Made by a program: the position numbers and the translations under genes. The notes below the pieces were generated by a model. The model was not told the origin of the DNA. It made no database searches and saw only the letters and a program-made list of their open reading frames with translations. A stretch of 47,130 nt of DNA, taken from Candidatus Elulimicrobium sp. GTDB lineage: Bacteria; Patescibacteriota; Minisyncoccia; Phycocordibacterales; UBA918. Each line of letters begins with the position of its first letter. Position 1 is the first letter of the stretch. The stretch is taken from NCBI GenBank assembly GCA_022730015.1, contig DZBU01000007.1, positions 1 to 47,130 of the forward strand, written 5' to 3'. This document shows positions 3,861 through 27,280 of the stretch, piece after piece.

Positions 3861-3989
3861 AATTTGTTTCAAATTTTCAGATTCACTAGTTGGTACTCGC
3901 GTATCGTAACAAAATTGCAGAAAAAGCAAAGCTTTCCGGTATAAATGAAAAGCCGCCTTACGAGAAAGGCGGCTGGAGAAGCTGGAGTG

Positions 3990-4181
3990 TTACGCTTTCA
4001 GCGCAATGATCCGGCGTAGGGTTATGTAGGCGGGTGATTGCCGAGAAAGACAGTTTCCTTCGATTGCTGGACAGCGACCGTCGGACTTGCGGTTGTTACA
4101 GCGACTGTGTCCAGGCTTGCGGTTGCAGCTGAATGTAACTAGGATCGGGCTGAGTTGTTGCTCAACACTGGTACTAATCAT
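3990..4181 (-). CDS. small Cys-rich protein (63 aa) with CNxxPGHSxC-x8-CPx6C motif
   Basis: GAAAGGGGCCATAAAATG ribosome-binding site, hairpin plus TTTT downstream (3949-3975); motif shared with the ORF at 26818. Confidence 0.65.
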   Translation of the reverse strand: MISTSVEQQLSPILVTFSCNRKPGHSRCNNRKSDGRCPAIEGNCLSRQSPAYITLRRIIALKA

Positions 4182-4377
4182 TTTATGGCCCCTTTCATCG
4201 GTATATAAAGAACAATGCTATTTTGTTCAGAAACAAAAATTCCCGGTCGAGCCGGGTGTCTCATGACAATTTGTCCCTGGCTCCTACACACCAACACCAG
4301 TCAAACAGATTCGCTTTCTCGAAAGAGCAAGGAAAGGGTTTAATAAAGATGCGGTATGCACATGTGCATCATAATCA

Positions 4378-26568: not shown

Positions 26569-26817
26569 CTCATTCGTTTGAAAGTAATTCCACAATTGAC
26601 GCCGCGCTTCGTTGCCACGCGAAAAATTTTCTTCACTGGGCACTAAGCCCCATTCAGAAAATTTTCCGCTCGCGCCTCGCACAGCATCTAATTCTGAAAT
26701 CACCTACAACAAAAAAAGACCCACAGGGTTCTTTTTTGTTTGCGTTATCATTTTTCTTTGTCTATACTGAAAAAAGCAAGAAGTATGTACATCAACGTAT
26801 TACGGGAGTAGACAGAC

Positions 26818-27117
26818 ATGGAAAAAGAGCAAGCATTTCCAATGGAAAGTAAAGGAGAATGCAATCTGTATCCTGGACACAGTCAGTGTCTAAAAAGAAT
26901 CAATAAGGGAAATTGTCCAGATAAGGAAAATCACGGGTGTAGTTCAAAACAACGAAAACACGCAACGGATTTTGACCTTCGAAGGATCCAGGAGGCTCAT
27001 TTCATGAGGGCTCTCGCCGAAGGAAAGCATCTGGAGCCATTTCCGGGTGAGCCAGACCACACAGGTGCCGTTAAAGAAATACTCGAGCGCAGCCCATCCT
27101 TCAAGCCCTATCCGTGA
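26818..27117 (+). CDS. small Cys-rich protein (99 aa) with CNxxPGHSxC-x8-CPx7C motif
   Basis: GGGAG upstream of ATG; ECNLYPGHSQCLKRINKGNCPDKENHGC; shares the motif with the ORF at 3990. Confidence 0.7.
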   Translation: MEKEQAFPMESKGECNLYPGHSQCLKRINKGNCPDKENHGCSSKQRKHATDFDLRRIQEAHFMRALAEGKHLEPFPGEPDHTGAVKEILERSPSFKPYP

Positions 27118-27280
27118 GGTCTGGGTTAGAAAGGTTCTTGATCGTGGAAACCACGTAAATTTAAAAGCCAAGCGTTAGCTTGGCTTTTTCCTTGGGACAT
27201 TAGCTACAAAGAAGGGACCTTCGTATACTCATTCGAAAAAGAAAACCACCCAGTAACTACTGGGTGGAAATTTTTGAACT

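Follow-up and report, generated by a model that had tools for sequence, protein, structure and literature searches.

A small four-cysteine protein family of Patescibacteria, with a possible boxA-like element in the leaders of some members

Introduction

Two small open reading frames on opposite strands of a 47,130-nucleotide stretch of Candidatus Elulimicrobium sp. DNA (contig DZBU01000007.1 of assembly GCA_022730015.1; hereafter the window) encode short proteins with similarly spaced cysteines. They raise the question of whether these proteins, here termed W1 and W2, represent a family and, if so, what its members might do. A preliminary description of the window had proposed a new family of Cys-rich mini-proteins, defined by a CNxxPGHSxC core, further spaced Cys residues and a following LRRI segment.

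Results

Two related proteins in one genome

The two frames lie where they were first described, and the Shine-Dalgarno (SD)-like sites assigned to both and the terminator assigned to W1 are likewise present; W2 also has a terminator (Table 1). The alignment of their motifs is real. With W1 as the query, the only matches in its whole genome were W1 itself and W2 (E 9.8e-6), and the reverse search with W2 gave E = 8.4e-5, the identity being 39-41% (41% over 59 aa). Of the 9,240 open frames with 40 aa or more that were read from separate loci of this genome, 778 kb in all, W1 and W2 alone contain the pattern C-x3-P-x4-C-x8-C-x(5,11)-C.

Table 1. Positions of W1, W2 and their flanking signals within the window
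Feature	Position	Strand	Basis or remark
W1, 63-aa four-Cys mini-protein (C19, C28, C37, C44; P23)	3990..4181	-	homologues and conserved columns
SD-like AAAGGGG of W1	4189..4195	-	sequence reading; 7 nt before ATG
boxA-like TGTTCTTT in W1 leader	4207..4214	-	enriched upstream of this genome's genes
Terminator-like hairpin and U-tract in W1 5' leader	4242..4256	-	also in three same-genus members
Intrinsic terminator of W1	3951..3974	-	15 nt past stop
W2, 99-aa member (C15, C24, C33, C41; P19)	26818..27117	+	alignment; C-terminal tail resembles GHLSDG..RRSP of family f6
SD-like GGGAG of W2	26804..26808	+	sequence reading
Terminator-like hairpin and U-tract upstream of W2	26718..26730	+	87 nt upstream of start; may be upstream transcript's
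Intrinsic terminator of W2	27165..27186	+	47 nt past stop

The two genes share CCTGGACACAGTC at the DNA level, as had been noted. As a sign of recent duplication this identity was rejected, because other members with PGHS use other codons (CCT GGT CAC AGT in G182, CCC GGC CAC AGC in G223); it is only a common codon choice. The comparisons do not show that W1 and W2 are sister paralogues: a homologue in G039, a genome of another taxonomic family, is as similar to W2 (41% over 78 aa, C-terminal tail included) as W1 is.

Homologues and their distribution

About 20 further homologues were found in two orders of one class, with profile E-values, before inclusion, down to 3e-9. Single-sequence searches of 59 genomes gave two copies in G007 and one in G006, both of the same genus, and the one in G039. 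Profile searches added members from the genome family f6 (G124, G182, G223, G413, G281 with three copies, G429, G366 and G427), from the window's order (G245) and from the second order of the class (G750, G739, G1192, G1218 with two adjacent genes, G1196 and G1164). The E-values of independent homologues, before inclusion, were 3e-9 (G1192), 6e-9 (G750), 1.7e-7 (G124), 5.3e-7 (G182), 8.3e-7 (G429), 1e-6 (G427), 1.2e-6 (G007), 5.8e-6 (G223) and 8e-6 (G006); G245, G739, G1196 and G1164 were weaker (2e-5 to 1.3e-3), and it was their motif that led to acceptance. E-values against the final model are not independent, since that model was built of the members themselves. Matches with internal stops or no Cys pattern were discarded, e.g. 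in G031, G029, G048, G383, G472 and G758. These results confirm that W1 and W2 are part of a genuine family of small four-cysteine proteins, hitherto without a name and spread patchily over Patescibacteria (CPR).

The searches covered samples of Patescibacteria genomes. By this reading, the gene is present in 3 of the 38 genus genomes sampled, in 9 of 21 from family f6 and in 6 of 131 from the second order; in a phylum-wide sample of 380 genomes, only the window's own genome passed E 0.001. Two of 41 matches in a pattern scan of named genomes were accepted, i.e. L100 (Nomurabacteria UBA11704) and L095 (D1_MAG_00076), the other 39 being judged chance frames by eye; L100, labelled Candidatus Nomurabacteria, encodes the same protein as G124. 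A phage origin was considered and rejected, the sole pattern match on a viral contig being a chance frame; a tblastn search of phages with W2 gave no match, nor did PHROGs.

Some copies lie side by side. G281 has two beside ftsH (L121) and a third on another contig (L122), and in G1218 (L201:708-1653) three small genes lie in tandem, of which the second and third, the latter added by eye, have the four-Cys core; the second carries an N-terminal extension with a weak match to DpnD-PcfM (E 0.25).

Signature, size and selection

The family signature can be written as C-x(3,4)-[P]-x4-C-x8-C-[P]-x(5,11)-C. In a core alignment of 17 rows the four Cys residues are invariant and the Pro nearly so; more widely, the third Cys is missing in G1164, and the Pro is absent from its usual place in G1218B, G1218C, G1196 and G281c. 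The first-proposed core was too narrow; the PGHS position may also be PDSS, PHGN, PKTD, PGGL, PGRN or PETS. The His is therefore not conserved, and LRRI, initially taken as a shared trait, is common to W1 and W2 only. Apart from the four Cys and, nearly, the Pro, there are no conserved family features, neither His, nor LRRI, nor the 13 nt shared by W1 and W2 qualifying. Several members of the second order have a CNR-x-P-x2-S-R-C core, or one near to it, which matches W1 well, and W2 and several f6 members share, by eye, a C-terminal tail of the GH[LT]S[DT]G..RRSP type. Members span 53-113 aa, most with 4-7 Cys, and their net charge ranges from -7 to +19, which argues against nucleic-acid binding as a common trait.

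The closest pair, G429 and G366 (68% identity), differs at 21, 14 and 45 first, second and third codon positions, respectively, with dN 0.25 and dS 2.69. The ratio, ~0.09, is far below the value near 1 expected of untranslated frames and indicates that the family is under purifying selection. SD-like sites were scored for 21 of 24 members (the script overlooked the AAAGGGG of W1), and 16 of 24 have a terminator within 90 nt past the stop.

Genomic sites

The family gene is flanked by tig and clpP in the window's genome (G000, W1) and, within the same genus, in G006 and G007, the latter with two copies. The other 27 genus genomes from which the tig-clpP gap was extracted have no such frame there, including G027, whose ClpP is 95% identical. 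In G029 (L131) the gap holds a different small frame, MTTKPVWEEDLPGDRWKPPIPPRDRNLP, with a strong SD and a terminator. In f6 the family gene is located past the 3' end of ftsH, whose other side is occupied by smpB (and tmRNA where found); tRNA-Ile and recG are nearby in several loci. In G750 and G1164 it is downstream of ndk (assigned in one examination with Pfam, in another from sequence similarity judged by eye), in G427 it adjoins cmk and a recR-like gene, and another member adjoins an HD-domain gene. The gene is thus retained inside a lineage, while its place (tig-clpP, ftsH, ndk or cmk) differs from one lineage to the next. An open-ended small protein at L200:3-312, which ends GTTGSQWIERLEKKGFRIGNYAKSILRSSDFKPTSG and has no Pfam match, is of a type that we take to be common and unnamed in these genomes.

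Two independent fixed sites, each adjoining the gene of an ATP-dependent protease, are what might be expected of a proteostasis adaptor working with the adjacent protease or chaperone (tig/clpP in the genus; ftsH/smpB/tmRNA in f6). We nevertheless regard such a role as very unlikely: the gene is convergent with ftsH in f6, W2 follows rpsG in the window and others lie at the ndk, cmk and HD-domain sites, and the members' own terminators argue against an operon with protease or chaperone genes.

Library searches, structure and cell location

Pfam, NCBIfam and PHROGs gave no family above chance for the four-Cys proteins, PADLOC gave no match, and the PDB gave no sequence match beyond endonuclease III-like protein 1 (E 1.1). 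A Foldseek search of the PDB with the W2 model gave no match, and nothing relevant was found in the literature on such a family in Patescibacteria. The proposal of a new family was thus borne out by the homologues beyond W1 and W2, which keep the Cys spacing, by the low dN/dS and by the libraries, in which the family has no model, so that annotation has probably given it no name. AlphaFold gave poor models (pTM 0.34 and 0.29), with a short helix, predicted at low confidence, around or just past the second Cys.

A strongly hydrophobic N terminus was found in no member, the top 15-residue Kyte-Doolittle mean being 1.53, in a check for export signals that used hydrophobicity alone. This lack of a signal peptide-like or membrane segment weighs against a disulfide-bonded exported peptide, bacteriocin- or toxin-like, acting outside the cell against a host or competitors, even though small size, Cys-richness, fast evolution beyond the Cys residues, patchy distribution and tandem duplicates are all compatible with one. 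As no modification, export or immunity genes were recognised nearby, as would befit an exported peptide or RiPP, the neighbours being mostly housekeeping genes, and as neither PADLOC nor PHROGs has a match, we consider this reading quite unlikely. With no export signal found, our best conjecture is a fold in the cytosol, stapled by zinc; of the earlier suggestion that four Cys and a His bind zinc, the conserved Cys residues stand and the His does not, zinc itself being what we infer.

Four conserved Cys residues would also suffice for one cluster in a cytosolic iron-sulfur protein, or could serve a redox thiol protein. To our knowledge, however, the Cys spacing fits no iron-sulfur cluster motif, neither Pfam nor NCBIfam gives a match to an iron-sulfur family, and the sole PDB sequence match is the marginal one given above; we think this role decidedly improbable.

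Leader hairpin and boxA-like site

In W1, G006, G007a and G007b, a GC hairpin with a U-tract ends 34-60 nt before the start and is followed by GTTCTT; the leaders of G223, G1192 and G1164 have a similar look. GTTCYT occurs within 90 nt upstream of 9 of 24 members versus 4 of 136 other genes, and a hairpin with a U-tract upstream of 10 of 24 versus 25 of 136, counts that are not clean significance tests because the motif was already known when they were taken and because the members are related. In the window's genome, 9 of 454 genes have TGTTCTTT upstream, which ranks it first of its 56 permutations (mean 1.9); the motif is therefore a general leader element, not private to the four-Cys family. 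It was observed slightly upstream of the SD of several unrelated genes (L208, L213, L215, L218, L235, L244, L245 and L252), two of which, named by eye, resemble those for a cold-shock protein and for a glucose-1-phosphate adenylyltransferase.

The boxA consensus, GYTCTTTAANA, acts in mRNA leaders (PMC5725501), and GTTCTTTA fits its start. In the roughly 50 nt before the start codon, the consensus is perfect in G007a and partial in W1 and G006; the loci of the window's genome yielded no 16S gene whose boxA could be compared. The succession, in several members including W1, of a 5'-UTR hairpin with a U-tract and a boxA-like TGTTCTTT suggests Nus-factor control of these leaders. Two other mechanisms were rejected. 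Cys and Trp codons do occur in frames of the W1 and G007a leaders (WCWC, YCCW), but for leader-peptide attenuation the W1 frame has no good start codon and, by eye, nothing comparable occurs in G006 or G007b; for mutually exclusive antiterminator and terminator folding, the computed folds gave no shared alternative structure.

The leader hairpin and U-tract of the genus members, together with the four conserved Cys, could point to a zinc or copper buffering or sensing mini-protein, made on demand via a leader attenuator. That seems unlikely, given that no metal transporter or metalloregulator was recognised in the neighbourhood, that the Cys content is mostly below that of metallothioneins, and that the boxA-like sites point to Nus factors rather than metals.

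Discussion

The existence of the family, its purifying selection, terminators, fixed sites and copy-number variation are borne out by the sequences. As to its role, we tentatively favour, at somewhat less than even confidence, the reading that W1 and W2 belong to an as yet unnamed family of cytosolic proteins in Patescibacteria, stapled by four Cys around one metal, adaptor- or regulator-like, and in part throttled in the leader. The core C-x(3,4)-P-x4-C-x8-C-P-x(5,11)-C would most likely fold into a small loop and helix, with the four Cys residues binding one metal ion, probably zinc, as a staple; the rest of the sequence, being free to vary, may present a partner protein or an RNA with a small binding surface. 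The genes would mostly be transcribed singly, as accessory genes that occupy a housekeeping site specific to each lineage and are occasionally duplicated or lost, and in part of the family expression may be throttled in the leader by the hairpin and U-tract and by the boxA-like site near the SD. Against this reading, most zinc folds have CxxC knuckles, which C-x8-C-x8-C does not.

Comparison with known systems reveals partial likenesses. CCCH-type zinc fingers have the spacing C-x8-C-x5-C-x3-H; like the family, they have first two ligands eight apart, no CxxC knuckles and little regular structure, whereas in the family the third spacing is 8, the fourth ligand is a Cys after 5-11 residues and the charge is mixed. 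The family's C-x(8,9)-C-x8-C-x(5,11)-C accordingly does not match C-x(7,9)-C-x(4,6)-C-x3-H, and there is no Pfam match. Nor does the core alignment contain a conserved CxxC pair, two such knuckles being characteristic of zinc ribbons and zinc knuckles. The mRNA leaders of suhB of E. coli and of the ParE-like toxin gene CKO_00699 of Citrobacter koseri are boxA-controlled (PMC5725501) and resemble those of the family in having a boxA-like site just 5' of the SD, with a perfect GYTCTTTAANA in G007a; they differ in that the family has a hairpin and U-tract shortly before this site and that its dependence on Nus factors is putative. A copper-responsive upstream ORF with DUF2946 (PMC9426467) is, like W1 before clpP, a small Cys-containing frame 5' of another gene, but W1 has its own terminator and no Pfam match, DUF2946 included, and the four-Cys family is not tied to one downstream gene.

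A bolder proposal, that the metal-stapled family is restricted to Patescibacteria, is boxA-controlled so as to follow ribosome synthesis, and serves as a protein-quality-control adaptor in tiny-genome cells, strikes us as highly improbable.

The leader finding hints that boxA control may operate on mRNAs in Patescibacteria as well. The genomes of these bacteria are very small; that an accessory mini-protein is nonetheless under purifying selection, duplicated and held at fixed housekeeping sites implies that it is probably useful to the cell.
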